DNA of 41,457 nt from a virus, in IMG/VR virus record IMGVR_UViG_3300027759_000169, positions 1-41,457 of that record, one strand, 5' to 3'. The position numbers were made by a program, and so were the translations under genes. Shown here in pieces: positions 2,729 to 34,708 of this stretch. The notes below the pieces were generated by a model, which worked only from the letters and a program-made list of their open reading frames with translations, searched no databases and was not told where the DNA came from. Every line of letters starts with the position of its first letter. Positions within the stretch are counted from its first letter, which is position 1.

Positions 2729-5700
2729 ATGGCACAATTAAACAGCCCAGGCGTAGCGGTTACTGTAATAGACGAAAGTTTCTATACTCCTGCCGCACCA
2801 GGTACAACACCTTTAATTATCGTAGCAACTGAGCAAGATAAAGCAAACTCAGCAGGTACTGGTACAGCACCAGGAACACTAAAAGCAAATGCAGGCAAAG
2901 TCTATTTGATGACTAGCCAGATGGATTTAGGCAGTACTTTTGGTACACCTATGTTTGAAACAGATGCTAGCAACAACCCAGTTCATGCTGGTGAAAAGAA
3001 TGAATATGGGCTTCAAGCGGCTTATAGCTATCTTGGAGTTAGCAGTCGCGCATACGTGGTACGTGCAGACGTAGATTTAGGAGCATTGGCTCCAAAAACC
3101 ACAGCCCCAGCAGGCGCTCCAGTGAACGGTGCATGGTGGTTTGACACAGCAGATTCTGTATATGGTATTTTTGAATGGAACGGCACCAAGCAAACTCCGT
3201 CATCCGGCGATGTAGCCCAATCATTTACAAACAAAACCCCAATAATTATCAGCGCCACTAATCAACAAGTTGGCGGCACAAGCGGTGGCAATCCACTAGC
3301 AAGTATCGGAGCCATTGGCAGTTATGCTCTTGTAACAACAGCATCTCCATATAAATTATTCTTTAAAAATTATCAAGGTACATGGGTACAAGTTGGTAGT
3401 AATTTATGGACAAAATCTTGGCCAACTATATCAGGCTCTGCTCCAACTGCTATTGATACAGCCGCAACAATTTTGATTAAAACAAGCCCAACAGGAGCTC
3501 AATCAGCTACTGTTACTGCTAGTGTGGCTAACATTACTAACGTAACTGTTACAGCCGCAAGTACTACTACACTTACAAATAGTGGAACAAACGGTTTAGC
3601 TGTGGGCGATATTGTTTATTTTAGTGCCGCATCAGGTGGCATCCAAACAGCAATTACAACTGCAAACAGTACAAAAAATTATACATATTTTTATGTAATT
3701 GCCGGTGTTACTTCAGGAACTTTTTCAATTAGTGCAACCAAAGGCGGAACAGCAATTTCGTTTGGTACAACTGGTACAGCTACAGTACAAGTTACAAGCA
3801 CAGCAACCAACGTGTTTACATCTACTGCGGCTAGCGGTTTAGTTCCAGGAGATGCAATCACTTTTCCATCACTAAACCCTGTTACTGGTTTGAGTCAAAC
3901 TGCTATTGGTGGCATTACACTAGGTACTCCTTACTATGTGGTTCAGACTAATGGTAATAATTTTAGTATCAGTGCTTCAGTTGTAACTGCTGGTGGAGTT
4001 AACTATGCCCAAGAACCTAAACAATTAACAGTTGGTTCAGGATCTATGGTTGGTCTAGAGACTGAATCACAGTTGCCGCTTACTGGAACACAAATTGCTT
4101 CAGTTAGTGCAATAGTGACCACTATTAATAACAACGGTAGTCCGGTAGTTCAAGGCTTAACAGCCGCAGTGGGCCCAAGCGGAGAATTGCAATTATTTAC
4201 AGACGGTACCATTAATAAAATTAATATTAGTAGTACAGGCGGCGCCACACCTCCAATAACTCCAGTGAGTACACCAGCAACAGTTAGTTCACTAGGCATT
4301 ATCGAAGGCGACTATTATGCACCTGCATTGGCGATGAGTCCGCATACTAGCGTTCCATTGTTCAAAGCTACAAATAGTGATACAAACAGTGGCGGTCGTC
4401 CAACTGGATCTGTATGGGTTAAAACTACGGACGCTAATTTAGGCGCAAGTTATACTGTGTATAATTATAGCACAACTACAAATTCGTTTGCTTTAATAAA
4501 TTCACCGTTGTACGCAAATAATCAAACAGCATTGTATAATTTAGATATTGCTGGCGGTGGAACAAATCTTCCAGTAGGCACAGCATACGTTAAATTTAAT
4601 GATGCTGAACAAACATTCTGGGAAGCATCACAATCAAGTTCAGGTACAGCCGCTCAACGTGGAGTACCAGCACTGGCAACATTTAACTTGTATACTCGTG
4701 TTAATGTAGGCCCTACAACAATTACAAGTAGCATTGTTGGAACAAGTACATTTACAAATGCAACTGCTTATACATTTAGTATGGTTGAAAGTTTAATAAG
4801 TAGTGCAAGTTTAAGCAGTGCTAAAACAATTAGTTTTACAGGGACTGGAACAACTGCTGATGCCACTACTATTGCTGGACTAATTAACTCAGCTGGTTTT
4901 GTAAATATCACTGCTAGTGTTAATTCAAGTAACCAAATTTTAATTAATCATAAACTAGGCGGCGATATTCGTTTTGCTAACGGTACTGCAACACCATTGG
5001 GTAATTTGTTTACCGCTGGTACAACAGTGAACTTGTATGCGTCACCTGCAGGCGACACAACGTATGCATTTGGTATAGCAAGTAACTGGAAAGCAGTTTC
5101 ATTACTAGCGGCTGGTTTAACAACTGGCGCAACTCCTCCATCGACAACAACAGCTGATGGTGCTATTTGGTATAATGCAAGTGTTTCCGAAGTTGATATT
5201 CTTATTAACACTGGATCTGCATGGACTGGATACAAAAATGTGGTATCAACTGCTGATGCTAAAGGTCCAATTATTAGTTCTACTAAGCCAACTATTCAAA
5301 CAGACGGCTCAACAGCACTGGTAACTGGAGACTTATGGATTGATACTAGCGATTTAGAAAATTACCCAACAATGTGGCGTTATAATGCTAGTACTAAAAA
5401 GTGGGTACAGATTGATACCAGTGACCAAACAAGCGAACTTGGTATTGTATTTGCTGATGCTCGTCAAGGCACAAGTGGTGGATCAGCTACTATTGCTCCG
5501 CAAGGATCTATCGTAGAACTACTAACTAGTTCTTATGTTGACTTTGATGCTCCGGATCCGTTACTATACCCAACAGGTATGTTGTTATGGAATACTCGTC
5601 GCAGTACATTTAACGTAAAACAATTTAAACAAAATTATATTGATATCACAGTTAAAAATTATCGTCAATCAGCGCCAGCAGGCACTGATCAAGCAAATTA

Positions 5701-6709
5701 TTATCCACATCGCTGGGTAAGCATTGCGGCAAATCAGCCAAACGGCGCAGGTACATTTGGACGTAAGGCTCAACGTGCTGTAGTTACACAAGCATTACAA
5801 GCATTAATTAACAGCAATCAAGCTATTCGCGATGAAGATTCATTATTGTATAACTTGTTAGCTTGCCCAGGATATCCTGAAACAGTTAACGAATTAATTG
5901 CATTGAATTATGACAGATCATTGGCCAGTTTCATCGTTGCAGACACACCAGCTCGCTTGTCAAGCGATGCTACAAGTTTAAGTAACTGGGGAAATAACAG
6001 TAAAGGTGCAGTTGATAACAATGAAGACGGCCTAGTAAGTACAGATCCGTATTGCGCTTTCTACTATCCATGGGGTTATTCAAGTGACAACTTAGGCAAC
6101 AACATTGTTGTTCCTCCAAGTCACATGATGTTACGTACTATTGCTCTAAGCGACAACGTTTCGTATCCATGGTTTGCCCCGGCTGGAACACGCCGTGGCG
6201 GTATTACCAACGCAAGTGCAGTAGGTTATGTAGATGCACAAACTGGAGAATTCCAATCAGTAGCATTGAACACTGGGCAACGCGATACATTGGCTAGCAT
6301 ACATGTTAACCCAATTACGTTTATTAGTGGTGCTGGATTAGTTGCTTATGGACAATACACACGTCAATTGGCCGCAAGTAGTTTAGATCGTATCAACGTA
6401 GCTCGTTTAGTTGTATATCTACGTAGACAGTTTAGTCAGTTGGCTAAACCATATGTATTTGAACCGAACGATACAGTTACACGTAACGAAATTAAACAAG
6501 CCGCAGAAAGCCTATTGTTAGAATTAGTGGGTCAACGTGCTATCTATGACTATCTAGTAGTTTGTGACGGAACTAATAACACACCAGCTCGTATCGATCG
6601 TAGCGAACTATATCTTGATGTAGCGATTGAACCAGTTAAAGCGGCAGAATTTATTTACATTCCATTAAGACTTGAAAATACTGGCGCTATCAAAGGTCTT
6701 GGACAATAA
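2729..6709 (+). CDS. 18: Tail sheath protein gp18, with a very large insertion
   Basis: A 1326-residue contractile sheath subunit, about twice the 659 residues of T4 gp18. The N-terminus (AQLNSPGVAVTVIDESFY) and the last 400-odd residues are sheath-like. Near the C-terminus are YLRRQFSQLAKPYVFEPND, a TRNEIKQAAESLL helix, and an LYLDVAIEPVKAAEFIYIPL strand. Residues about 125-900 are a Thr/Ser/Gly/Ala-rich insertion with repeated modules. Four are of the type G-x-x-W-x-D-T (near 133, 556, 808 and 865) and two of the type GL-x-x-GD-x-I-x-F with a YYV strand (near 286 and 369). The insertion probably decorates the outside of the sheath. GGAG precedes the ATG and the tube gene follows by 12 bases. 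Confidence 0.92.
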   Translation: MAQLNSPGVAVTVIDESFYTPAAPGTTPLIIVATEQDKANSAGTGTAPGTLKANAGKVYLMTSQMDLGSTFGTPMFETDASNNPVHAGEKNEYGLQAAYSYLGVSSRAYVVRADVDLGALAPKTTAPAGAPVNGAWWFDTADSVYGIFEWNGTKQTPSSGDVAQSFTNKTPIIISATNQQVGGTSGGNPLASIGAIGSYALVTTASPYKLFFKNYQGTWVQVGSNLWTKSWPTISGSAPTAIDTAATILIKTSPTGAQSATVTASVANITNVTVTAASTTTLTNSGTNGLAVGDIVYFSAASGGIQTAITTANSTKNYTYFYVIAGVTSGTFSISATKGGTAISFGTTGTATVQVTSTATNVFTSTAASGLVPGDAITFPSLNPVTGLSQTAIGGITLGTPYYVVQTNGNNFSISASVVTAGGVNYAQEPKQLTVGSGSMVGLETESQLPLTGTQIASVSAIVTTINNNGSPVVQGLTAAVGPSGELQLFTDGTINKINISSTGGATPPITPVSTPATVSSLGIIEGDYYAPALAMSPHTSVPLFKATNSDTNSGGRPTGSVWVKTTDANLGASYTVYNYSTTTNSFALINSPLYANNQTALYNLDIAGGGTNLPVGTAYVKFNDAEQTFWEASQSSSGTAAQRGVPALATFNLYTRVNVGPTTITSSIVGTSTFTNATAYTFSMVESLISSASLSSAKTISFTGTGTTADATTIAGLINSAGFVNITASVNSSNQILINHKLGGDIRFANGTATPLGNLFTAGTTVNLYASPAGDTTYAFGIASNWKAVSLLAAGLTTGATPPSTTTADGAIWYNASVSEVDILINTGSAWTGYKNVVSTADAKGPIISSTKPTIQTDGSTALVTGDLWIDTSDLENYPTMWRYNASTKKWVQIDTSDQTSELGIVFADARQGTSGGSATIAPQGSIVELLTSSYVDFDAPDPLLYPTGMLLWNTRRSTFNVKQFKQNYIDITVKNYRQSAPAGTDQANYYPHRWVSIAANQPNGAGTFGRKAQRAVVTQALQALINSNQAIRDEDSLLYNLLACPGYPETVNELIALNYDRSLASFIVADTPARLSSDATSLSNWGNNSKGAVDNNEDGLVSTDPYCAFYYPWGYSSDNLGNNIVVPPSHMMLRTIALSDNVSYPWFAPAGTRRGGITNASAVGYVDAQTGEFQSVALNTGQRDTLASIHVNPITFISGAGLVAYGQYTRQLAASSLDRINVARLVVYLRRQFSQLAKPYVFEPNDTVTRNEIKQAAESLLLELVGQRAIYDYLVVCDGTNNTPARIDRSELYLDVAIEPVKAAEFIYIPLRLENTGAIKGLGQ

Positions 6710-9231: not shown

Positions 9232-9708
9232 ATGAAGAAACTTGAAGAGATACTAAATTTGCCGGAAAGTAAAAAACTTGTAAAAGCTGAAGAAATTCGT
9301 GCTACACCAGTTGATCCACAGCCGTTCCTACGTAGCATGGAAGAGTTTGATAAAATTTCAGCTAGTTTACCAGCAGTAAAAGGTCTAGGTGATGCGGCAG
9401 ATTCTGAATTTGATGCACTAGCACAGCGGGCTACAGATGCTTACGATGATTTAATGGATTTAGGCATGAATGTTGAAGCACGTTACAGCAGTAGGATTTT
9501 TGAAGTAGCTGGCGGCATGCTTAAAAACGCAATTGATGCTAAATCGGCCAAAATTGACAAAAAACTTAAGATGATAGAGTTACAACTTAAGAAACAGAAA
9601 TTGGATCAAGATTCTGCAAATAGTGACGAAGGAATCAGCTTACAGGGCGATGGAGTTATTATAACGGACCGCAATAGCTTGATTGAAAAATTAAAGAAAA
9701 TGAAATAA
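9232..9708 (+). CDS. 16: Probable terminase small subunit (gp16-like)
   Basis: A 158-residue protein, close to T4 gp16 (164). It has an N-terminal leader with acidic and proline residues, then DSEFDALAQRATDAYDDLMDLGMNVEARYSSRIFEVAGGMLKNAIDAKSAKIDKKLKMIELQLKKQK in consecutive segments (two long helices predicted to form a coiled-coil hairpin). The tail contains GVIITDRNSLIEKL. This architecture matches small terminases, which recognise DNA ends and stimulate gp17. Its place between gp4 and the large terminase cluster agrees. A weak late-type motif CATAAGTA (9219-9226) ends five bases before the ATG and there is no clear Shine-Dalgarno sequence. The assignment could fail on a profile search. 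Confidence 0.68.
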   Translation: MKKLEEILNLPESKKLVKAEEIRATPVDPQPFLRSMEEFDKISASLPAVKGLGDAADSEFDALAQRATDAYDDLMDLGMNVEARYSSRIFEVAGGMLKNAIDAKSAKIDKKLKMIELQLKKQKLDQDSANSDEGISLQGDGVIITDRNSLIEKLKKMK

Positions 9709-9711: not shown

Positions 9712-9727
9712 CTAGATGGAAACCACT

Positions 9728-10336
9728 ATGAAATCATTTAAAGAATACTTAACAGAAAGCAAAAAGATCTACGAATTTAAGGTCAAAATTGCCGGCGATT
9801 TGCCACCAGGATTTGAAAACGATGTTAAACTTGGATTAGACAAGTTTGATGTACAAAGCATCAGCAAGCCTAAGCGTACACCTATCCAAGAAAGTCCAAT
9901 TGATTTTCCCAATGTTAAGTTTAGTGAAGTTTCGGTATTTGAAGTAGCATTGAATTACCCAACAACAAGTCAAGTAGTTAAAGAAGCACTTGCACAAGCT
10001 ATACGTGTTAATGAAAGTAAAATTTTAGTTCGTACACTGAGCGAAGAAGCAGAAGCAGTATTAAATGCATCTAGCATGAGAGTTCCAGACGGCAAGAAAT
10101 CTTTATTAAATACCCCTGAGCTAGAACAAATTCCAGGCGCACAAGAACTAGTTGGTGAAAAACGTGCAATGAGTTTCTTGAAAGATTTAAATGCAAATAA
10201 ACATGATTTAGAAGAAGTAACTGGCATAAATGACCAGTTATTTGTTAAAGGTAAACAAGCAACCGCCCAGCCTATGCAAGAGACTAATAGTCCTGCATCA
10301 ACAGGTCCTATTAGTGGCAAAGGAAAAGCAAAATGA
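9728..10336 (+). CDS. Putative internal head protein with capsid-targeting-like tag
   Basis: A 202-residue protein starting MKSFKEYLTESKK. This aligns residue for residue with the T4 capsid-targeting sequence MKTYQEFIAEA of internal proteins, including Glu10 of the gp21 protease motif (I/L)-x-E followed by a small residue. That alignment decides the start at 9728 over an in-frame ATG at 9716. The rest is a mixed globular segment (KVKIAGDLPPGFENDVKLGLDKFDV, EVALNYPTTSQVVKEAL) and a low-complexity Ser/Gly/Lys tail. I know no family for it. It overlaps the next gene by four bases. Packaging into the prohead and cleavage after Glu10 are inferred. Confidence 0.68.
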   Translation: MKSFKEYLTESKKIYEFKVKIAGDLPPGFENDVKLGLDKFDVQSISKPKRTPIQESPIDFPNVKFSEVSVFEVALNYPTTSQVVKEALAQAIRVNESKILVRTLSEEAEAVLNASSMRVPDGKKSLLNTPELEQIPGAQELVGEKRAMSFLKDLNANKHDLEEVTGINDQLFVKGKQATAQPMQETNSPASTGPISGKGKAK

Positions 10337-11151
10337 ACTTTCAAGAATTAGCAAGAAAAATACGTAGGATTGATGAAGGTGCAGTAGCTGAATGCGGGGA
10401 TATGATGGGTGGCCATATGCCAACACCAATGCCGCAACAAGACACTGTTAGCATGAATGTTAGCATGAACGCTACTGGCAAAGGCGGTATTCGTGATTTG
10501 ATGCAAGTGTTACAAAATATTGAAGACGGTGTTACACAACACAGCAGTAGTCCTTCTATTGTTGATATTACTCCGTCAGATATGCATTTAGATTTAGAGC
10601 CTGATACAGATGACAGCATGATGGGCGGTGAAATAGAAATTGAACCTGAATTTAGTGATGAAGAAGGCCCAGAAGAAATTGTATTTGGTGGCGAAGAAGA
10701 GCCAGAAGCTAGTTTTGATGAACCGGAGGCTGAATTAGATGCACAAGCACAAGGCGGCAAAGGAATTGATCCAAGAATTCAACATGCAATTGCACCTGTA
10801 GTACAAGCAGTTGGTCTAGCACACGCTTTAGGTAAGGATCCATCTAAAGTATTTGGGTCTGATAAGGTAACAGACGAGGACGACATGCCAATGCCGTCAG
10901 ATACAGATTCAGCAATGCCAGACAGCGGTGGAGAAGAAGCACTTACGTCTGAAGAATTTGCAAATCGTCCAAATACCAAATATCAAAGCACAAACTACAT
11001 GACTAAAACTTTGGCACAAGGCGCCGATGAACCACAACGCATGACTAAACACGGGTATCGTAATGGTGATAATCCTTTAGCTATGAAAGAAGGCTTGCAA
11101 GGACGCCTAGCTCAGTTATATAAGCAAGTTAAATTAAGAGAAAGCAAATAA
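10333..11151 (+). CDS. Acidic putative internal head protein, tagged
   Basis: A 272-residue, Met- and acid-rich protein. The N-terminus MNFQELARKIRRIDEGAV is an amphipathic helix ending in I-D-E before Gly, a fit to the T4 prohead protease consensus (cut after Glu15). Residues about 90-130 are strongly acidic (EIEIEPEFSDEEGPEE), and a globular piece follows (DPRIQHAIAPVVQAVGLAHAL). The C-terminus is GLQGRLAQLYKQVKLRESK, a basic amphipathic helix. I recall related proteins in uncultured marine T4-like phages but no function. It lies in an operon with 9728-10336 (four-base overlap), and a terminator follows. A scaffold-like role is an alternative because of the acidity. Confidence 0.66.
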   Translation: MNFQELARKIRRIDEGAVAECGDMMGGHMPTPMPQQDTVSMNVSMNATGKGGIRDLMQVLQNIEDGVTQHSSSPSIVDITPSDMHLDLEPDTDDSMMGGEIEIEPEFSDEEGPEEIVFGGEEEPEASFDEPEAELDAQAQGGKGIDPRIQHAIAPVVQAVGLAHALGKDPSKVFGSDKVTDEDDMPMPSDTDSAMPDSGGEEALTSEEFANRPNTKYQSTNYMTKTLAQGADEPQRMTKHGYRNGDNPLAMKEGLQGRLAQLYKQVKLRESK

Positions 11152-11170
11152 TTCGTCAGCAGTATCAAAA

Positions 11171-11194
11171 AAGGCTCTTCGGAGCCTTTTTTTT
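11171..11194 (+). terminator. Intrinsic terminator with UUCG loop
   Basis: AAGGCTC (11171-11177), ttcg loop, GAGCCTT (11182-11188), then T to 11194. It closes the operon of tagged proteins and lies 14 bases before the terminase ATG. Confidence 0.92.
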
Positions 11195-11195
11195 A

Positions 11196-11203
11196 TGTAA
11201 ATA
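11196..11203 (+). promoter_or_regulatory. Late-type promoter motif for large terminase
   Basis: TGTAAATA, five bases from the ATG at 11209, immediately after the terminator T run. There is no Shine-Dalgarno, so a leaderless terminase mRNA is predicted. Confidence 0.55.
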
Positions 11204-11208
11204 ACGTT

Positions 11209-12801
11209 ATGGCAAAATCATTAGACGGCGTCTTAACTAAAAAAGCGCATAAGCAAGAACGATTCACGGAAGAGCAAATCAACGATTTGTTAATGTGTTC
11301 CGACCCCGAAGCAGGATATCATCACTTCTCTAAGAACTTCTTTCACATTCAACATCCTGTTAAAGGTAAGGTAAAATTTGAACCGTATAACTATCAAGAA
11401 CGACTGTTAAATGCTTATCATGATTTTCGATTTAACATTAACATGCTACCGCGTCAAAGTGGCAAGACAACTTGTGCGTCAGCATACCTGTTGTGGTTTG
11501 CTATGTTTCACCCAGATCAAACTATTCTTGTGGCCGCGCACAAATACACAGGCGCTCAAGAAATTATGCAACGTATCCGCTATGGATACGAACTATGTCC
11601 AGATCATATTAGATGCGGTGTAGTAAGTTACAATAAAGGGAGTATAGATTTTGACAACGGATCACGAATTGTTTCAGCTACTACTACTGGCAACACCGGT
11701 CGTGGTATGTCCATATCCTTACTATATTGCGATGAGTTTGCTTTCGTACAACCTAACATTGCTGAAGAATTTTGGACTTCAATATCGCCAACACTAGCAA
11801 CTGGTGGACGTGCGATTATTACATCAACTCCAAACTCAGACGAAGATACATTTGCACTTATCTGGAAAGAAAGTAAAGACCTGTTTGACGAGTACGGTAA
11901 CGAAAAAACAAACGGGCTTGGCCGCAACGGATTTCATGGATTCCGTGCTGAGTGGTACGAACATCCGGATCGAGATGACGAATGGAAACGAGTTGAAATG
12001 GGTCGTATTGGCGAAGAACGATTCCGACGTGAATATGGTTGCGAATTCTTAGTTTATGATGAAACACTTATCAGCAGTCTAAAACTAGCAGAGCTGGTAG
12101 GCCGAGATCCTAAACACAAAATGGGACAAGTTCGATGGTACAAAGAACCTGAACCCGGCCACTTATACGCTATTGCACTAGATCCCAGCTTAGGAACAGG
12201 CGGCGACTTTGGCGCAATACAGGTATTTGAATTGCCTAGCTTTACACAGATAGGCGAATGGCAACATAATATTACTCCGGTAGAAGGGCAAGTTAGAATA
12301 TTGCGTGAAATTTTAAGGTATATTCAAGAGAAGATAGGCGAAAATAACAATAACAGTATATACTGGAGTGTGGAAAACAACACAGTAGGAGAAAGTGCAT
12401 TGATTTGTATTGCTGACCAGGGAGAGGAAAGTTTTCCTGGATTATTTGTTAGCGAACCTGTGCGTAAGGGCAATGTACGTAAATTCCGCAAAGGATTTAA
12501 TACTACATTTGGCAACAAGATTTCAGCTTGCGCCCGCTTGAAATTCTTAATTGAAACAGATAAAATGAAGATTTTTAGTAAGCAAACTATCAGCGAACTT
12601 AAAGGGTTTATAGCCCACGGTACTACTTTTAAAGCTAAAGTAGGACTACACGACGACCTAGTTTCCAGCTTGTTATTGATTGTACGTTTAAGTGCAGTAC
12701 TAGCAGATTGGGACATTAGGGTGTTTGACAGCATCAGTACAGGTGACGAATTCCAAGAAGATTACGAACCTCCGATGCCTATTTTTATATCAGGGCTGTG
12801 A
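11209..12801 (+). CDS. 17: Terminase large subunit gp17 (packaging ATPase/nuclease)
   Basis: A 530-residue DNA-packaging motor (T4 gp17 is 610). The ATPase domain has a Walker A-type PRQSGKTT at residues 81-88 and Walker B LLYCDEF with Asp175/Glu176, followed by the ITSTPNS coupling segment near 204-210. The C-terminal RNase H-fold nuclease shows the first catalytic Asp in ALDPSLGTGGDFG (Asp325) and a late GLHDDLVSSL motif supplying the last acidic pair. It acts at the portal to drive ATP-dependent packaging and headful cutting. It is unusual in lying between two groups of putative internal head proteins, not next to gp18. Its stop codon overlaps the promoter octamer of the next gene. Confidence 0.96.
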   Translation: MAKSLDGVLTKKAHKQERFTEEQINDLLMCSDPEAGYHHFSKNFFHIQHPVKGKVKFEPYNYQERLLNAYHDFRFNINMLPRQSGKTTCASAYLLWFAMFHPDQTILVAAHKYTGAQEIMQRIRYGYELCPDHIRCGVVSYNKGSIDFDNGSRIVSATTTGNTGRGMSISLLYCDEFAFVQPNIAEEFWTSISPTLATGGRAIITSTPNSDEDTFALIWKESKDLFDEYGNEKTNGLGRNGFHGFRAEWYEHPDRDDEWKRVEMGRIGEERFRREYGCEFLVYDETLISSLKLAELVGRDPKHKMGQVRWYKEPEPGHLYAIALDPSLGTGGDFGAIQVFELPSFTQIGEWQHNITPVEGQVRILREILRYIQEKIGENNNNSIYWSVENNTVGESALICIADQGEESFPGLFVSEPVRKGNVRKFRKGFNTTFGNKISACARLKFLIETDKMKIFSKQTISELKGFIAHGTTFKAKVGLHDDLVSSLLLIVRLSAVLADWDIRVFDSISTGDEFQEDYEPPMPIFISGL

Positions 12802-12807
12802 TAAATA
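12800..12807 (+). promoter_or_regulatory. Late-type promoter motif, leaderless arrangement
   Basis: GATAAATA overlapping the terminase TGA. The 15 bases from here through the ATG at 12812 are identical to those at the gp14 start on the minus strand. Confidence 0.6.
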
Positions 12808-12811
12808 TCAT

Positions 12812-15040
12812 ATGGAACCAAATTTAGATCAAGTAGCAAAAGAGCTGTACGGCAAAATACAAACACGCTTCCCCGACATTAAAATGGCGGATGAAAAAGC
12901 CCAAGTATTGAGCAAAAAAGAAGACATTCCAAAAGCCCGTTTCTTTGAATTTGAATACAAAGAAGGCGGTGAAGCACTAGGAACTATATCTATTAATTTA
13001 GATGCAGAAGATGGCATAGTAATTCAAATCAGCGGAGATTTAACCAACGATGAAGAAGAAACTACTGAGCACGGTGCATATAAATTTATCAAAAGTTTTA
13101 GAAATTTTGCTAGATCACACATGTTAAAATACGAAATTAACAATATGGGCAAGAGTAGTTTAGATAAAAGAGATTACGAATTCCATGCAAAACGCGGAGA
13201 AGAACCAATGACGGAAAGTAAAATGTGGGGTACCTCAAAAGTGAGTTACCAGGACCTAGGAGAAACTCGTATTGTTGTTCGCCACAGCAAACCTGTTAAT
13301 TACGACTTGGCCGCAGGACGTACAATGCACATTGATGCAATCTATATTGAAAACGCAGGCGGCGAACGTTTCCGTTATCCAGTACGTCATTTAAATGGTG
13401 CTCGCGCAATGGCTCAGCATATTGCTCATGGTGGCAATCCTTACGATGCTATTGGTCAACACGTTGTTAGTCTAAGCGAAGAACTAAGTAAATTGCGCAT
13501 GTTTAAAGGTTATGTTAGCCGTACTCCAGTTGTATCAGAATCAATGAGCGCAGTTAACGATAAAGTTATTGAACGTATTGATCAAGTTAAAAAAGAAATT
13601 CATCAGTTACAACAATCTAAACACTACGAAACATTTGCAGAAAGTTTTAGTCCTTACGAAGCTAAAGAAATCCCAGAAGAAATTATGTTAGATTGGGTTG
13701 ACCGTTTAACAGTGCGTAGCTTCAAAGAAGAATTAAAAGATGTGTTCCCGTACATTTATAAACTAGTAGACGAAAGTGAAATTCCAACTAAAGAATTAGA
13801 TCCAGATGATTTATTAGATGAAGCAGGTAGCCCAGCACAACAAGCCGCTATTGCTATTGCTAAAAAGAAAGCAAAAAAAGTATCCGAATCTCCGGAAGAT
13901 CAATTTGAAAATTTTCTAGACACCATTGTTGCAGAAACACAAGGTGCTGATGTTCTTCATGGTAATCAAGATGCAGTACAAGAACTTAAAGACGAAATTG
14001 CCAAGGGTGAACTAAAAGGCGATTTAAATCAATCCAGCGTTGTTGGTAACTTTATCAATGATGATGAGCTACTAGATATATTAGATAAGACCAGTGGCAA
14101 CGTTGATGCATGGCCAGTTGTAAAAGCATGGTTGGATCAAAAAGATCCAGATCTAGCTAACGAATTGTTTGCTGATTATAACGCATCTGGTGCTGGCGAA
14201 GAAGCCGCTCCTGTACCTCCTCCACCAGAAGGCAAAGAAGCCGCTCCTGTACCTCCTCCACCAGAAGGCGAAGAAGCCGCTCCTGTACCTCCTCCACCCG
14301 CTCCGATGGCAGAAAGCGATGATGTTGCTCCGTGGTACAAAGATAAAGCCGAACAAGATGCCGATAAACATAAACAAACTTTTAAAAAGCCAGCACAAGC
14401 AGGCAAAGGTATGGATCGTGCAAGAGCATTAGCACAACTAGCATTAAAGAAAGGTGCTAAATCAGATACTAAGATTGGCAACAAGACGTTGCACGATGTT
14501 ATGTTAGAACTTGGCATGGATCCAGAAGATCCAGCGGCCAAAGAAATTGCTCCGCCAGCCGAACCTGCCGGAGATAGTTTTGAGGATATGATGGCATTTG
14601 CCAGCGGCTTCTACAATAAAGAAGAACATAATTTTACCCGCGGCGTAACCGATTTAGAAACAAAACTAATGAAACAATTTCCAGGTGCAAATCCTAGAGA
14701 TATGCAACGTGTAGTTATGGCGGCTCGCAAAATAGATCCTCCGAGCAGTGTACACAAACAAGAACACGATAGAATGCTTAAATTGGCAGGTGTTGGCCAC
14801 GATGCTGAAGTTGACGAAGCACTTCCATTAGATCAATTAAGACAAGCGGCCGGGTATGACGCTTCGAAAGATGTAGTATCACAACAATTAGCAAAGTTAG
14901 GGCCATTAGGTAAGAAGCCAGTGACTCCATTACAACCAGGCCAAAAAATTGGTGTGTTAAAACCTACAATGGAATCAAGCACCCGCGAAAGCATTAACGA
15001 AAGTTTATCTATCATTAGAAAATTATCAGGATTAAAGTAA
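12812..15040 (+). CDS. Large conserved virion-associated protein, unknown function
   Basis: A 742-residue protein. The frame could open at 12725 inside the terminase gene, but the ATG at 12812 sits exactly four bases after a late promoter motif and is preferred. Residues 1-110 are a mixed alpha/beta domain (KARFFEFEYKEGGEALGTISI). Residues about 140-240 hold a segment I recall as conserved in marine T4-like phages (SKMWGTSKVSYQDLGETRIVV, AAGRTMHIDAIYIENAGGERF, GGNPYDAIGQHVVSLSEEL). A proline-rich linker with three 12-residue repeats (about 464-496) precedes a helical C-terminal part ending RESINESLSIIRKLSGLK. It lacks the N-terminal tag of its neighbours. Context suggests a head or internal protein; the activity is unknown. 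Confidence 0.72.
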   Translation: MEPNLDQVAKELYGKIQTRFPDIKMADEKAQVLSKKEDIPKARFFEFEYKEGGEALGTISINLDAEDGIVIQISGDLTNDEEETTEHGAYKFIKSFRNFARSHMLKYEINNMGKSSLDKRDYEFHAKRGEEPMTESKMWGTSKVSYQDLGETRIVVRHSKPVNYDLAAGRTMHIDAIYIENAGGERFRYPVRHLNGARAMAQHIAHGGNPYDAIGQHVVSLSEELSKLRMFKGYVSRTPVVSESMSAVNDKVIERIDQVKKEIHQLQQSKHYETFAESFSPYEAKEIPEEIMLDWVDRLTVRSFKEELKDVFPYIYKLVDESEIPTKELDPDDLLDEAGSPAQQAAIAIAKKKAKKVSESPEDQFENFLDTIVAETQGADVLHGNQDAVQELKDEIAKGELKGDLNQSSVVGNFINDDELLDILDKTSGNVDAWPVVKAWLDQKDPDLANELFADYNASGAGEEAAPVPPPPEGKEAAPVPPPPEGEEAAPVPPPPAPMAESDDVAPWYKDKAEQDADKHKQTFKKPAQAGKGMDRARALAQLALKKGAKSDTKIGNKTLHDVMLELGMDPEDPAAKEIAPPAEPAGDSFEDMMAFASGFYNKEEHNFTRGVTDLETKLMKQFPGANPRDMQRVVMAARKIDPPSSVHKQEHDRMLKLAGVGHDAEVDEALPLDQLRQAAGYDASKDVVSQQLAKLGPLGKKPVTPLQPGQKIGVLKPTMESSTRESINESLSIIRKLSGLK
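14201..14300 (+). repeat. 36-bp tandem repeat, about 2.8 copies, in coding sequence
   Basis: Units at 14201-14236 and 14237-14272 and a partial third from 14273 encode EAAPVPPPPEG(K/E). The copies are almost identical at DNA level, which suggests recent slippage or recombination. They form a stiff Pro-rich linker. Confidence 0.9.
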
Positions 15041-15049
15041 GGATATACT

Positions 15050-17386
15050 ATGAACGAACTACACGATCTATTAGCAAAGATTAAAAAAATTGAAGAAGCC
15101 GACGTGCAGACAGCTCCAGCGGCACAACCTGCGGTAGCAACAGCGGCACAACCTGCGGCCGCTCCACAACAAGTACCTGCTCCTGAAACAGGTGATCAGA
15201 CTTATACTCGTCGACAAAATGCAGATAAAGCTAAAGCCATTCTTAAAAATTCAGTTAAAAAAGCAAATGACTTGTTTATGGTTAACGGTTACTATATTGA
15301 AGACGGCGGCAAAACAGGTACATTGTTGCACCATATGATGGCAAATAGTAAAGGCGGTGGCGCGAACGATCAAGGCACAGTAGTTACTACTAAAGATATT
15401 GGCTTTGGCCAAGGTAAAGAGTTTGCTGATCAGCTTACCAGCATTGGACTAAAAATTACACCACAGGTAATTCAAAACCCTGGTATTTTTGGATGGAAGT
15501 GGACGCAAAGCGAAAAAACAGTTCTTACTGTTAACTTAGATGATTTAAGAAAGATTGCCGAAGGTAAGCCGCCAATGATGGACGCTCCGCCTCCGCCAGC
15601 GCCAGCGCCAGTTGTCCAAGTAGCGCCGCCAGCACAGAACGATCAACAAGTTGCTACTAACGGAGCAGATCCAAAAGATATTGCAGAACTAAAAGATATC
15701 CTTACAAAATTAGGAGCAACAATTCCTAGTAAATTTTCTATCTCGTCTGCGCCTAATAACTTAGGGCCTCGTCAATCCGGCCTTGGCGGCAGTCTTTACG
15801 AAGGCATCAAATTTAAATCGTCAATTGGTCGTTCATTGCTAGCAGAACTTGATGCGGCACCAACAATAAGTCAAACCAACCAAGCAGTAGTACAAGCTAT
15901 TGCGCCAGCATCTGCAACAGCTCCTAAACTAAATGTAAATGCTAGATGTAAAATGTGTAGTATTCCTTACAAGGACCACTTTAACTTTGAACCCGAAGGC
16001 GATCCAAACGGAAAAGTAACAAGTACTAAATTTAGACACCCGGCAAGTCCAACAAATCAGTTTTTTCCAGGACTAACTACTGAAGCCGCACCTGCGGATC
16101 CTGCACAAAGCAACACATTGCCGCCACCTGCCGCAGGCCAACTGTCTCCTGACGAAAGAACAAAACTTATAGCACGAGCTAAAACATTGTATGACAAACT
16201 GTTGCCTTACAAAGACAATTTAGAAGTTAGTCCATTACTAGCCGCATATCTTACAGCCCAAAAAGAAGCACCTGCTCCTGCAGATCCAGAAGTACGACCG
16301 GTGCCAACTGTGCGTATAGAGCCAAATAAGATACCAGATCCAAGTGATAAACCTCCAGTGGAAGTAGTACCGCCTAGAGATAAACCTCCAGTGGAAGTAG
16401 TACCGCCTAGAAAACGAGAAAACGATCAAGAAAAAACAACCGAGTATCCTGCAAGCTGGATGAAAGTTCCAATCGAATTGGCCCATCAAAACAATCAAGG
16501 TTTAAGCCCGTTTGCTGGAACTGGTGCTGGTGGAGTCTATGTGTTAGGAAAAGGTACTCCAGAGCAAGCATTTGGCTATCACGACAATAGATCTAACACC
16601 CTTGTGATATTAAAACCTAATACAAAAGGTCAAGAAGATAAACGCTATGCACCGATACCCTGGGGAGACAAACGTTTTCCTTGGGTCGATAGTCGTGGAG
16701 GTGTAACTCGAGTACAAGCCGCCACTGGTAGTAATGTCTATATAGTTAAGGCAGGCGATACTCTAACACTAAAACGTAAAGATCTTGAAGCCGCTAATCC
16801 TCAGATCAAAAATTTTAATAAAATTAATCCAGGCGATAGAATTAATTTACCAGGTGCTGGCAACGTATCTACAAACGAAAAATTACCTATTCCTCCAGAA
16901 AACTCAGACAAGCGCACTATTATCAGTTATATAAATCAAGAAGTTCCTAATGCAAAATATCATGATTACTTCTGGGTCAATGGCCGCAGATGGAGATTAG
17001 TTGCCGATGGTAAAGGAACAAACAGATATATTTGGACAGAAGATAATCCTGTGAATACTTTATTTGGACAGGATGCTGATCGCACAACAAACAAATATAC
17101 TGGCCCAGATGAAAGTAAGGAAGTTGGCCAGCCACAAGCAGTTACTCCACAGAAAGAGGACGATGCTTTGAGATACGCCATTCAAAGCCACATCAACATG
17201 GGCTCACCTGATTCTAGTCCAACAGCTAAAACAGTTATTAAAATGGCTGATTGGTACAGAAAACATCCAGACGAACTTCAAAAGAAGATGAAAGAAATTG
17301 GCTTAAAACCAATGGCTGTGAAAGAAGGTGTTGGATTTGCCAACGATGAATTGAACAGAATTATGAGTTTGGTACACCACAGATAA
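15050..17386 (+). CDS. Large tagged protein with zinc-ribbon-like motif and LysM-like domain
   Basis: A 778-residue protein. The N-terminus MNELHDLLAKIKKIEEADVQ is an amphipathic helix ending in I-E-E before Ala (gp21-type site after Glu16), followed by an Ala/Pro-rich linker. Near residues 300-335 a CKMC pair with downstream His (KDHFNFEP, FRHPAS) may bind zinc. Residues 563-601 resemble a LysM fold (VYIVKAGDTL, LEAANPQI, INPGDRINLP), which binds peptidoglycan. Two DKPPVEVVPPR repeats lie near 433-454. The C-terminal helix KEGVGFANDELNRIMSLVHHR resembles the ends of its neighbours. The ATG has AAGGA nine bases upstream. It could be an internal protein ejected into the host, or a baseplate LysM protein; the tag favours the former. 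Confidence 0.68.
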   Translation: MNELHDLLAKIKKIEEADVQTAPAAQPAVATAAQPAAAPQQVPAPETGDQTYTRRQNADKAKAILKNSVKKANDLFMVNGYYIEDGGKTGTLLHHMMANSKGGGANDQGTVVTTKDIGFGQGKEFADQLTSIGLKITPQVIQNPGIFGWKWTQSEKTVLTVNLDDLRKIAEGKPPMMDAPPPPAPAPVVQVAPPAQNDQQVATNGADPKDIAELKDILTKLGATIPSKFSISSAPNNLGPRQSGLGGSLYEGIKFKSSIGRSLLAELDAAPTISQTNQAVVQAIAPASATAPKLNVNARCKMCSIPYKDHFNFEPEGDPNGKVTSTKFRHPASPTNQFFPGLTTEAAPADPAQSNTLPPPAAGQLSPDERTKLIARAKTLYDKLLPYKDNLEVSPLLAAYLTAQKEAPAPADPEVRPVPTVRIEPNKIPDPSDKPPVEVVPPRDKPPVEVVPPRKRENDQEKTTEYPASWMKVPIELAHQNNQGLSPFAGTGAGGVYVLGKGTPEQAFGYHDNRSNTLVILKPNTKGQEDKRYAPIPWGDKRFPWVDSRGGVTRVQAATGSNVYIVKAGDTLTLKRKDLEAANPQIKNFNKINPGDRINLPGAGNVSTNEKLPIPPENSDKRTIISYINQEVPNAKYHDYFWVNGRRWRLVADGKGTNRYIWTEDNPVNTLFGQDADRTTNKYTGPDESKEVGQPQAVTPQKEDDALRYAIQSHINMGSPDSSPTAKTVIKMADWYRKHPDELQKKMKEIGLKPMAVKEGVGFANDELNRIMSLVHHR
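16346..16411 (+). repeat. 33-bp perfect tandem duplication
   Basis: Two adjacent copies (16346-16378, 16379-16411) encode DKPPVEVVPPR twice in a proline-rich linker. Confidence 0.9.
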
Positions 17387-17395
17387 AGAAATACC

Positions 17396-17743
17396 ATGAA
17401 AACTCTTCGCGATTATATAAATCTGATAGAAGATGCCCAAGCGCCAGTTCAAGCACCTGCAGATCCAAATAAACTGCTGGTGTTTATTAATTTTGCCAGC
17501 GGCCAGGGCAACAAACAGTATGATTTAACAAGCATCATGCAAAAAAATGGTTGGGTTGGAACTCCTGCGCAAGTTATTAATCAAGCTGAAAAATGGTTAA
17601 GTGATTTTTTAAGACAACGCGGCGATCAGTGGACTGGCGCAAGCTGGTCCTATAAAGGCCAACTATTGAGAGCAAGCCAAGTTGGAGATGCTGGCGCCGC
17701 TGACGAGTGGGCCGATGAAATTAAAAACTCATTTAGAAAATAA
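17396..17743 (+). CDS. Small putative internal head protein, tagged
   Basis: A 115-residue protein. The start MKTLRDYINLIEDAQAP is close to the T4 capsid-targeting sequence (MKT, aromatic at 7, Ile at 8) and contains L-I-E before Asp (cut after Glu12 predicted). After a Pro/Ala linker comes a compact domain, LLVFINFASGQGNKQYDLTSIMQKNGW, a VINQAEKWLSDFLRQRG helix and WSYKGQLLRASQVGDAGAADEWADEI. I do not recognise the fold. It follows the LysM-like gene by nine bases and is the last gene of this late block before the gp32 promoter. It may be packaged as a small internal protein like T4 IPI-IPIII, which counter host defences; that is speculation. Confidence 0.64.
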   Translation: MKTLRDYINLIEDAQAPVQAPADPNKLLVFINFASGQGNKQYDLTSIMQKNGWVGTPAQVINQAEKWLSDFLRQRGDQWTGASWSYKGQLLRASQVGDAGAADEWADEIKNSFRK

Positions 17744-20200: not shown

Positions 20201-20653
20201 ATGTGGTACGCCAAGGTTAGTAAAGACATTTCTTATATTCCAGATGCCGTGGCATATTTTAACGATGAGTTAATTGGAGCACGTCAAGACACGAATATTA
20301 AAGGCAATATTGAAAAGGCGGCCGCTTCCATGCCTGGTATTGTTGAACAACGATTCAGTCAACTACAAGAAATTGAAGCTATCCTTGAGTACTTGCATAT
20401 TGAACTTAGGCGTTTAAAAAGTCAACACTTTCGTAAATATTTAGAAAACTATCAACGAGCTTTATCTTCTAGGGACTGTGAAAAGTTTGTAGAAGGTGAA
20501 GCTGACGTTGTAGACTTTGAAAAGATCATCAACGAATTTGCCTTGTTGCGTAACAAATGGCTTGGCATTACTAAAGGCCTGGACGTTAAACAGTGGCAAT
20601 TGAGTAACGTAATTAAATTGCGTACTGCTGGTATGGAAGATGCTACACTATGA
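20201..20653 (+). CDS. Possible UvsY-like recombination mediator
   Basis: A 150-residue, largely helical protein (T4 UvsY is 137). A central basic helix pair (ILEYLHIELRRLKSQHFRKYLENYQRAL) and the end, WLGITKGLDVKQWQLSNVIKLRTAGMED, recall the UvsY layout. In UvsY a C-terminal segment with a conserved helix supports hexamer formation and loading of UvsX onto gp32-covered DNA. Position two genes after uvsX in the same operon agrees. Sequence identity to T4 UvsY is not evident by eye, so this is a contextual call and gives no gene symbol. The ATG starts one base after the previous stop. Confidence 0.5.
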   Translation: MWYAKVSKDISYIPDAVAYFNDELIGARQDTNIKGNIEKAAASMPGIVEQRFSQLQEIEAILEYLHIELRRLKSQHFRKYLENYQRALSSRDCEKFVEGEADVVDFEKIINEFALLRNKWLGITKGLDVKQWQLSNVIKLRTAGMEDATL

Positions 20654-21405
20654 AGATAGTATTAGTAACTGGCGGATTTGATCCGCTACATAGCGGACAT
20701 ATTGCTTATTTTAAGGAAGCAAGAACGCTAGGCGACATGCTAATTGTTGGACTTAATAGCGATGCTTGGCTAGAGCGTAAGAAAGGACGAGCATTTATGT
20801 CCTGGAATGAAAGATTGTGTATCGTCAATAATCTGTCTATGGTAGACGAAGTATACACATTCGACGATGAAGATAATTCCGCAAAACATTTTATTCAGCA
20901 AGTAAAAGCGCACTTTCCAGACGGTGAATTGATCTTTGCCAACGGTGGAGATCGCAATGCATCTAATATACCTGAAATAACAGTTCCTAATGTATTATTT
21001 AAATTTGGAATTGGCGGAACAAACAAAGCCAACAGCTCAAGTTGGATTTTGGACGAATGGAAAGCACCAAAGACTGAACGTCCCTGGGGATATTATCGTG
21101 TACTGCATGAAGTAAACGGTACTAAAGTTAAAGAACTTACAATCAATCCTGGATGTAGTTTAAGTTTACAAAAACACAAATTTAGGCATGAATTTTGGCA
21201 TATTACTTCTGGTAAGTGTGCAGTAGAGCAACGCATGCCTGGCGGATACGGGTTACCAACCATCGAATTATCCGCACATAGCCAATTATCTGTACCGCTT
21301 AATGATTGGCATCGAATTTATAATCCATTTGATGAGCCATGCAAAATTGTAGAAATACAATACGGCAAATATTGCTCAGAAGACGATATAGAACGTCAAG
21401 ATTAA
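20650..21405 (+). CDS. Cytidylyltransferase / mannose-6-phosphate isomerase-type cupin fusion
   Basis: A 251-residue two-domain protein. Residues 1-135 are a nucleotidyltransferase of the RfaE/TagD type: GGFDPLHSGH with His14/His17, LNSDAWLERKKGR and a WNER motif. Such enzymes join CTP or ATP to a sugar or polyol phosphate. Residues about 143-245 are a cupin like type II mannose-6-phosphate isomerases (ERPWGYYRVL, SLSLQKHKFRHEFWHITSGKC, WHRIYNPFDEPCKIVEIQYG). It overlaps the UvsY-like gene by four bases and sits in a recombination operon. Likely role: alter host surface sugars (LPS/capsule) or make a sugar nucleotide for phage DNA or protein modification. The substrate cannot be read from sequence. 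Confidence 0.82.
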   Translation: MKIVLVTGGFDPLHSGHIAYFKEARTLGDMLIVGLNSDAWLERKKGRAFMSWNERLCIVNNLSMVDEVYTFDDEDNSAKHFIQQVKAHFPDGELIFANGGDRNASNIPEITVPNVLFKFGIGGTNKANSSSWILDEWKAPKTERPWGYYRVLHEVNGTKVKELTINPGCSLSLQKHKFRHEFWHITSGKCAVEQRMPGGYGLPTIELSAHSQLSVPLNDWHRIYNPFDEPCKIVEIQYGKYCSEDDIERQD

Positions 21406-30979: not shown

Positions 30980-31674
30980 AACCAATTAATATTAATTATG
31001 TTTGGAAAATTAACGACATAGACGTATACTATACTAACGAGACTAATGGCGGCGGCGAAGCATTTGCTGAAGATTATTGTAATATTGTTGATGGTCTATA
31101 CGGTGATCGAGTATTTGAAAATGCTCTCGAATGGTGTTCAGGTCCAGGATTTATAGGTTATGCACTGCTAGCAACAGGACTATGTAATCGTATTACGTTT
31201 AATGATATCCATCAGCCTGCACTAGATATGGCAGAACTTACTAAATCAAAAAATACTTTATTCTCTGATAAAATTTCAATATACCAAGGGTCGACCTTAG
31301 AAAGTATACCCGAGTCTGAAAAATTTGATTTGGTAGTAGCAAATCCTCCACACTATCTATCTAAATATCTTGCATCGCAAAGTCTAGGGTTTGATAAATT
31401 AGGAATGCAGATAGGGCCACGTAATGCAGAAATACTAATAGACGAAAATTGGAAAGCTCACACAGATTTTTACAAACATATTAAAAAACGATTGGCACCC
31501 AATGGAATAATTTTAATACAAGAAAATCAAGCTGGGTCTGCAAAACGTGCCGGAAACTTTATGCATATGGTAGAAAATGCTGGGCTTAAAATAATTAGAG
31601 AAATTAGTTCTTTAAAGCACTATGATACAAACACAGCTATGCAGATATATTATATAGAGGTTACTCATAGATGA
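30976..31674 (+). CDS. SAM-dependent methyltransferase, NPPH type
   Basis: A 232-residue class I methyltransferase. The SAM-binding motif is LEWCSGPGFIGYALL (about 51-65), an acidic residue follows at NDIHQPAL, and motif IV is VVANPPHY (NPPH at 123-126). NPP(Y/F/H) motifs act on amino groups (adenine N6, cytosine N4, or Gln in PrmC/HemK). The N-terminal 45 residues are not a recognisable target-recognition domain, and no restriction partner is present. It may be a DNA modification enzyme, an RNA enzyme or a PrmC-like protein methylase. Four-base overlaps join it to genes on both sides. Confidence 0.8.
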   Translation: MKPININYVWKINDIDVYYTNETNGGGEAFAEDYCNIVDGLYGDRVFENALEWCSGPGFIGYALLATGLCNRITFNDIHQPALDMAELTKSKNTLFSDKISIYQGSTLESIPESEKFDLVVANPPHYLSKYLASQSLGFDKLGMQIGPRNAEILIDENWKAHTDFYKHIKKRLAPNGIILIQENQAGSAKRAGNFMHMVENAGLKIIREISSLKHYDTNTAMQIYYIEVTHR

Positions 31675-32624
31675 TTTGCTGGGGAGTCAATGCACTAAAT
31701 CATGGTAGTAGTATTGCTGTTTTTAAAGACGGCAACTATATTAACAATGTTATATCTGATAACGATGAAATATCGCCAGATATGTATAAAAACTTTCTAG
31801 AGTATCACGGAACTCCTGATAGAATTTTTTGGTATGAAAATCCATGGTTTAAGAAAGCAAGACAGCTATATGCAGGCCAATATACTACTGCAATAGATTT
31901 GTCAGTACTGCCCGCCCGCAAACTTAAAAAATGGGGGTTAGGGTATGCCAGCTTAACTTACACTAAACATCATGCTAGCCATGCGGCCGCAGGATATTAT
32001 ACAAGTCCGTTTAATCACTGTGCTATTGTTGTACTAGACGCTATCGGCGAGTTTGAATGTGCTACTATTTGGGAAGGTAAGCATGGCGAAATGACTAGAG
32101 TGTGGAGTAAAAGTTATCCACATAGTTTAGGATTGTTTTACAGTGCGTTCACAAAGATGCTAGGATTACAGCCTATTAGAGATGAATACATATTACAACA
32201 AATGGCCACACTGGGCGACCCTAGTAGATTTAGAAAAGACATAGATACTTACTTTAAAGGCGGCACGGTTGAGCTTGCCTACAATTTTCATAGAGGTGTA
32301 CAGAATTGGGATATTGGAGGCTGGACAGTACCAGACCAGTGTAACCTTGCGGCCGCAGTTCAAGAGCGTTTTGAAATTGAAATTAGTAAAGTAATGCGTT
32401 TAGCTAAACGATTAACTAACGCAGATTGTTTAGTATATATGGGCGGATGTGCTATGAACAGTGCCGCTAACAAGAATGCAGTTGAACCCGTATTTAAATA
32501 TCGTTGGAGTTTACCAAATCCTGGAGATCCGAGCAGTAGTATTGGTGCAGTTGCGTATCACACCAAACAACGTATATGGAGAAATGACTGGGCTCCAGTC
32601 AAACATATTGCGATTAACGTATAA
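31671..32624 (+). CDS. Carbamoyltransferase, N-terminal domain only (NodU/CmcH family)
   Basis: A 317-residue protein matching the ASKHA-fold N-terminal half of NodU/TobZ-type O-carbamoyltransferases: WGVNALNHGSSIAVF, KHHASHAAAGYY (metal-binding His100/101/104), AIVVLDAIGEFE, SLGLFYSAFTKMLG and VYMGGCAMNSAANKN, ending in PGDPSSSIGAV. The family is usually about 550 residues with a C-terminal YrdC-like carbamoyl-adenylate domain, which is absent here. The next gene, gp41, begins 17 bases later, so there is no room for it. The protein may need a partner or have another function. Overlap with the methyltransferase gene (ATGA) suggests a joint modification pathway. Confidence 0.82.
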   Translation: MICWGVNALNHGSSIAVFKDGNYINNVISDNDEISPDMYKNFLEYHGTPDRIFWYENPWFKKARQLYAGQYTTAIDLSVLPARKLKKWGLGYASLTYTKHHASHAAAGYYTSPFNHCAIVVLDAIGEFECATIWEGKHGEMTRVWSKSYPHSLGLFYSAFTKMLGLQPIRDEYILQQMATLGDPSRFRKDIDTYFKGGTVELAYNFHRGVQNWDIGGWTVPDQCNLAAAVQERFEIEISKVMRLAKRLTNADCLVYMGGCAMNSAANKNAVEPVFKYRWSLPNPGDPSSSIGAVAYHTKQRIWRNDWAPVKHIAINV

Positions 32625-34156: not shown

Positions 34157-34708
34157 ATGTCAACAACACCAAACATATTACGCAAGTATTTAGATATTTT
34201 AGAGGCAGAAACTGACTCTAAACCTGTAGCAGATATGCCAACTTCTGGCCCAAGCGATACTACTGATATGCCCAGTTCGGATAAAATTCAAATTGCTCCG
34301 CCAAAGGGTGAAGGATCAATCCAAGCTGTTATTTCAGCAGTTAAAGATTTTCAACAAGCAACTGGAGATTTGCCAGCAGATGGTATTTTGCGCCCAACTA
34401 CATTAGCCAAATTGCTAAGTCAAAGCGGACGTATGGGCAGAGAAGAAGCAGAAAAATTAGCAAAGGGCGGCGAATCAAATAAAGAAGCTACTCCAATTGC
34501 TGAAAATATTGAAGCCGGAGATCGTCATCAGGTATTGCTACACAAAGCGGCCTTACATGAAGGTTATTCACAAGGTCTTCGCGGACATGAATGCATGTGC
34601 CCACATTCAGTTGGAACCGGCGAACACAGCTATCACTTACATGGACACGGTCTAGGAATAAAAGAATGTGGCGGTGTTTGGACAAAACCAATGCCGGGCG
34701 CAATGTAA
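34157..34708 (+). CDS. Tagged protein with peptidoglycan-binding-like and Cys/His-rich domains
   Basis: A 183-residue protein. The start MSTTPNILRKYLDILEAETD is an amphipathic helix with I-L-E before Ala (gp21-type cut after Glu16). Residues about 53-88 (SIQAVISAVKDFQQATGDLP, ADGILRPTTLAKLL) resemble a PG_binding_1 domain: a helix, then DG-x-x-x-x-x-T-x-x-x-L. Residues 144-171 are rich in metal ligands (HECMCPH, then HSYHLHGHGLGIKEC). It has its own late promoter and a strong terminator, so it is a single-gene unit. Likely a virion protein that touches the cell wall. No catalytic residue for wall cleavage is seen. Confidence 0.7.
   Translation: MSTTPNILRKYLDILEAETDSKPVADMPTSGPSDTTDMPSSDKIQIAPPKGEGSIQAVISAVKDFQQATGDLPADGILRPTTLAKLLSQSGRMGREEAEKLAKGGESNKEATPIAENIEAGDRHQVLLHKAALHEGYSQGLRGHECMCPHSVGTGEHSYHLHGHGLGIKECGGVWTKPMPGAM

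Follow-up and report, generated by a model that had tools for sequence, protein, structure and literature searches.

What are the short N-terminal segments that recur, on otherwise dissimilar proteins, around the terminase gene of this virus? In phage T4, the internal proteins IPI-III and Alt carry a capsid-targeting sequence that is cut by gp21 (Peptidase_S77). A preliminary description of the 41,457-base virus fragment analyzed here (the window) had claimed five N-termini of this kind, and all were found as written: MKSFKEYLTE/S at 9728 (protein A), MNFQELARKIRRIDE/G at 10333 (protein B), MNELHDLLAKIKKIEE/A at 15050 (protein C), MKTLRDYINLIE/D at 17396 (protein E), and MSTTPNILRKYLDILE/A at 34157 (protein D), with the slash marking the predicted cut and all five genes and tags on the plus strand. 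The bodies behind the segments had been described as unlike one another, and BLAST matches between different families were indeed found at tag level only. We consider it likely that the segments target proteins to the capsid as in T4, that a gp21-like protease removes them, and that the bodies are head cargo that can be exchanged.

The large terminase subunit of the window (gp17-like; 11209..12801, plus strand; PF03237, PF17289) is 54% identical to that of the Pseudomonas jumbo phage PA5oct, followed by those of Sinorhizobium phage Phosso, Serratia BF, and Escherichia 121Q-like phages. Between 8.4 and 19.9 kb, gene order is the same as in PA5oct gp285-gp276: a small structural protein, a head-completion protein, a small-terminase-like protein, A (9728), B (10333), the large terminase, a protein that we call F (12812), and then gp32-like and UvsX-like proteins. 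Conservation was assessed in a sample of 63 IMG/VR loci with relatives of 9728, where the neighboring genes were also read; where records lack annotation, gene starts were set by a simple purpose-made caller, and as homologues share ancestry, the family counts given below are not independent events. Elsewhere in the window, the tail sheath (2729-6709) has 1,326 aa and contains Ser/Thr/Gly-rich stretches in its middle; that of PA5oct has 879 aa. By reading the sequence, we also noted an apparent fusion of cytidylyltransferase-like and cupin-like domains (20650-21405) and a carbamoyltransferase-like protein of 317 aa (31671-32624); its positional counterpart in locus L104 (2984-4456) is far longer (490 aa).

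Of the 41 window proteins, 9 have Glu at position 8-20 as the end of an (I/L)xE motif whose next residue is small or acidic; internal windows predict 2.7 (z 4.3). Because (I/L)xK was likewise raised, about 2-fold, in the same small set, and because a look-alike N-terminus occurs at 9232, the pattern count alone is weak to moderate evidence for tags; conservation, which is decisive, was therefore tested. By chance, short N-terminal (I/L)xE patterns occur in roughly 7-13% of proteins. Raw pattern counting was dropped as sole evidence, the loose motif marking 11/60 MS-detected and 18/91 undetected PA5oct proteins. The look-alike, MKKLEEILNLPE/S, begins a terminase-small-subunit-like protein (9232..9708, plus strand; PHROG 445). 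It was rejected as a sixth tag and is probably not one, judging from the replacement of Glu by Asp in loci L041 and L058 (LPDSK); its PA5oct counterpart was not MS-detected.

Protein A (9728..10336; 202 aa; PHROG 14802, head and packaging) consists of the tag (9728..9757, predicted cut after Glu10), a ferredoxin-like domain at about residues 15-103, and a variable C-terminus. There is an in-frame ATG upstream, at 9716, but 9728 is likely the start since the codons preceding MKSF are not conserved in relatives. Glu10 was invariant in 37/37 diverse homologues and encoded by both GAA and GAG, with synonymous codon changes, and the tag occurs as 18 distinct DNA sequences; positions P2 and P1' varied, and the family variants LTE, LIE, LME, ITE, and LAE all preserve (I/L)xE. 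In the predicted structure (mean pLDDT 65), a helix at residues 4-10 lies ahead of the ferredoxin-like domain; a fold search returned ferredoxin-like folds and no convincing solved relative. The residues after the tag are as conserved as the tag, and the segment could thus be simply part of the fold. The preliminary description had proposed a search for the tags across relatives, and they are conserved in the 9728, 10333, and 15050 families; however, the site Glu is lost in the 9728 orthologues of PA5oct (YYDA/S) and Phosso (YLSS/V). The PA5oct orthologue, gp282, is listed by ESI-MS/MS in virions despite this loss.

Protein B (10333..11151), with 272 aa and an acidic body, has its tag at 10333..10377 and a predicted cut after Glu15. 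The family consensus is MN(F/L)xxLxxK(I/L)xxI(D/E)E, with G, N, or S as the next residue, and (I/L)xE was found in 34/35 unique N-termini, with 2.3 expected, whereas the downstream 12812 family, serving as a control, had it in 0/17. Glu15/16 was kept in 37/43 distinct N-termini, and in four of the six exceptions an (I/L)xE at position 21 stands in for the lost site: in L016, L018, L020, and L021, Glu15 is changed to Ala, Gly, or Ser, and the position 21 sites read LKE, LME, LME, and LTE. Because these four are related, the replacements may represent one event. The C-terminal module is exchanged among relatives, which range from 88 to 661 aa. Loss of tags from conserved bodies would have spoken against the tag reading; the reverse was found for the 10333 and 15050 families.

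Protein C (15050..17386), of 778 aa, carries its tag at 15050..15097 with a predicted cut after Glu16; (I/L)xE was present in 6/6 unique family N-termini, against 0.1 expected. By BLAST segments, the first 18 and the last about 30 residues are conserved and the middle is not. This protein has a weak endolysin-type match (PHROG 380, E 0.007) and a LysM-like segment at residues 554-626. LysM/peptidoglycan-binding segments recur in C-type and 34157-type proteins, with E values of 0.005 in window 34157, 1.3e-6 for the LysM of the positional counterpart in L067, 2.5e-5 in L105, and 1.3e-4 in L006, several of the matches falling below curated cut-offs; such segments would fit action at the cell wall during delivery. 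Two further features of these proteins were noted. Proline-rich tandem repeats occur within the 12812-15040 and 15050-17386 proteins (EAAPVPPPPEG-type, three copies; DKPPVEVVPPR, two copies). A Cys-containing module, CKMCxxxYKDHFNFEPxGDPNGKVTSTKFRH, is 70% identical between residues 286-342 of the 15050-17386 protein and L105:5013-6908, two proteins that are both tagged and otherwise different.

Protein D (34157..34708), of 183 aa, has a Cys/His-rich C-terminus and a weak peptidoglycan-binding match (PF01471, E 0.0047, below cut-off). Its tag spans 34157..34204, with a predicted cut after Glu16. The homologue in L104, 68% identical, reads ILRKYLDMLNE/D, a one-residue shift after which the (I/L)xE rule still holds. 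In L067, the 413-aa protein at the 15050 position begins with a 34157-type tag, NILRRYMDILAE/R, and has only residues 1-31 in common with 34157 by BLAST. Tag swaps between unrelated bodies are thus seen both here and in the exchanged bodies of B and C. For protein E (17396..17743; 115 aa), the tag (17396..17431, predicted cut after Glu12) was assigned from sequence only and is seen only in near-identical relatives (98% identity).

The preliminary description had placed the genes of the tagged cohort around the terminase gene and had proposed a search for the gp21 gene outside the window. The large neighbor at 12812-15040 has no N-terminal tag. The S77 protease (PF03420) was absent from the 41-kb window, and a Peptidase_S77 gene was identified in PA5oct, 121Q, Phosso, Atu_ph07, and the relatives G001, G002, and G004; of the relatives searched, only a 108-kb fragment gave no PF03420 match. 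The S77 genes lie near those for scaffold and capsid proteins, an arrangement also seen in T4. Scaffold proteins of five relatives contain 18-24 (I/L)xE sites, versus 6-9 in shuffles, which compares with 16 versus 5.7 for T4 gp22, and they themselves begin with such a tag (ILNE/Q, LLKE/S, ALFE/N, ELLE/S, KLLE/G). Furthermore, the major capsid proteins of G001, G002, G004, and PA5oct show (Y/F)LxE just ahead of the conserved core (KYLME/S, RYLAE/N, RFLVE/N), where T4 gp23 has FLTE65/A. An (I/L)xE protease specificity is therefore visible in the sequences of this lineage. The tagged bodies do not share the (I/L)xE richness of the scaffolds; depletion of the motif in them was not significant.

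The claimed resemblance between the 9728 tag and the T4 tag MKTYQEFIAE was borne out, only 7 of 246,125 internal 9-mers scoring better. We also ranked 252 T4 proteins with a matrix trained only on tags of the lineage of the window phage; IPIII came first and IPII fifth, these names being assigned from the MKTYQEFIAE start and length. A closely similar matrix gave scores of 8 or more to 13 N-termini in G001, a 345-kb relative, where 2.6 were expected; in PA5oct, 11 N-termini scored high, against an expectation of 2.75. The highest score in PA5oct went to gp223, MNDSIKKYISIAE/A (L098:35980-36528), an MS-detected Fe/Mn superoxide dismutase. MS detection in PA5oct showed no significant association with tag score (best Fisher p 0.19), with MS flags that cover replication and metabolic enzymes and many non-head proteins.

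Other tagged candidates were noted in relatives. In G001, all on the minus strand, these are an Fe/Mn superoxide dismutase with a capsid-type tag, MYNFIRYVSLNE/G (L090:5190-5750), a protein with a phage lysozyme domain (PF18013) after MRANEFTIKE/D (L093:19192-19950), and one with a HELVH zinc-peptidase-like motif after MKIKELLTE/S (L096:13904-14314). Cyanophage P-SSM2 (L138-L150) encodes proteins of 86, 424, and 573 aa, with stops at 100529, 159417, and 171458 of the record; the N-termini are MKSFKQFLEE/A, MKSFSQFLTE/T, and MKSLSQFIIE/T. As this is nearly the tag seen here, T4-related phages probably use it generally.

Protein F (12812..15040, plus strand; about 742 aa; PHROG 13484, head and packaging) ends in SINE/SLSIIRKLSGLK, which resembles the scaffold C-termini ELRRLAGIK, ELKRLAGLK, and DIRKLAGLKI. 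Scored with a matrix derived solely from scaffold C-termini, it came first of the non-scaffold proteins in a set of 1,559 drawn from seven genomes or fragments. The conserved C-terminus of 15050 was considered as a second scaffold mimic and is unsupported, ranking 148 of 1,559; only 12812 passes. Scaffold-like LAG motifs, N-terminal or internal, were present in PA5oct gp281, PA5oct gp249, and 121Q gp560. A hydrophobic-x-E-(S/N/G) site right before a C-terminal helix was found in 17/26 B, 4/6 C, and 8/16 F proteins, where 2.5, 0.1, and 2.8 were expected. A two-ended loading code is a tentative reading that we find rather doubtful: cargo would mimic the scaffold N-terminally, by the helix and (I/L)xE, and some cargo also C-terminally, by a site and a LAG-type amphipathic helix like those of the scaffold and of 12812-15040, and the head core would accept exchangeable middles such as the peptidoglycan-binding, LysM, lysozyme, and superoxide dismutase bodies of relatives.

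The sequences show that tags are conserved while bodies change, that one tag can sit on different bodies, and that relatives have the protease and signs of its specificity; loading, cleavage, head location, and ejection of the tagged proteins are inferred. A newly made protein would join the prohead scaffold core through its tag, a short amphipathic helix ending in (I/L)-x-E. Inside the closed prohead, Peptidase_S77 would be activated, the scaffold destroyed, and the major capsid protein trimmed; the same specificity would clip the tags, leaving the bodies in the head as internal cargo, some of which, those with LysM or peptidoglycan-binding segments, would probably be delivered with the DNA to the cell envelope. 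We propose that the bodies of the 10333 and 15050 families can be exchanged because the tag alone suffices for loading. The internal-protein reading of the preliminary description is supported in part, as regards T4-type tag behavior, the (I/L)xE site, S77 in relatives, and the scaffold and capsid sites. It had further called the set unusually large, which is not established: phiKZ and 201phi2-1 each have 19 processed head proteins (PMC5694885).

The best-surviving alternative, possible in our view though clearly less probable than cargo, is that the tags send these proteins to the prohead core for head assembly, as minor core or scaffold-like components, with no delivery to the host. Their genes flank the terminase and carry PHROG labels of head and packaging, the C-terminus of 12812 is scaffold-like, and cleavage in T4 extends to the core proteins gp67, gp68, and gp22 (PMC5694885). 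However, bodies without (I/L)xE richness would survive cleavage, and delivered cargo fits better with the free exchange of B and C bodies and with the LysM/peptidoglycan-binding segments of several relatives.

Peptidoglycan-binding domains are common among tail proteins. Their presence here, and the listing by MS in virions of PA5oct gp282 and gp281, which have no (I/L)xE near the start, could mean that the tagged proteins are external or neck/tail virion proteins whose N-terminal helices serve ordinary interactions and have nothing to do with the protease. We regard this as improbable, given the strong (I/L)xE bias, the presence of another (I/L)xE where the usual site is lost, the one-residue shift of the 34157 type that preserves the motif, and the ranking of the T4 internal proteins. 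Chance, by which short amphipathic N-termini would luckily end in (I/L)xE, can account for the background frequency of the pattern, the look-alike at 9232, and about 2-3 of the 13 high-scoring G001 N-termini, and is possible for 17396 alone, but it is disfavored for 9728, 10333, and 15050 by family-level conservation and is very improbable for the cohort.

Targeting sequences as we read them agree with those of T4 internal proteins and Alt in being short, amphipathic N-terminal segments that end in (I/L)xE on unrelated bodies; the T4 internal proteins are likewise diverse, with the tag alone conserved (PMC3012670). Relatives of the window phage also share with T4 the S77 protease, an (I/L)xE-rich scaffold, and the equivalent capsid-protein site. 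Unlike in T4, there are two tag lengths (10 and 12-16 residues), the cargo reaches 778 aa and includes LysM and peptidoglycan-binding segments, and the genes lie around the terminase. Many head proteins of phiKZ and SPN3US also lose N-terminal propeptides in the prohead, and their giant heads contain an inner body (PMC10052503, PMC5694885), but the protease, gp175/gp245 (MEROPS S80), has another specificity, e.g., SQE or (S/A/G)xE sites, and the propeptides are mostly far longer (111-254 residues, two of 20-24). DarB of phage P1 similarly has an N-terminal address able to carry a reporter into the head (PMC9024508), although with another protease and head system. The relatives 121Q/phAPEC6 have homologues of 9728, the scaffold, and the protease in common with this lineage, and an inner body of 91 x 18 nm was seen in their heads by cryo-EM (PMC7247149). 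We found no description of such a cohort for this lineage in the open-access literature. Compared with known tags, the longer tags, the large exchangeable cargo, and the scaffold-like C-terminal signal on a neighbor are new here.

A tag that can be read from sequence would allow candidate head cargo of large T4-related phages to be listed from genomes alone. It also suggests new tags with which proteins could be loaded into large phage heads, and a two-ended code, if true, would mean that T4-related jumbo phages widely possess a modular system for delivery.
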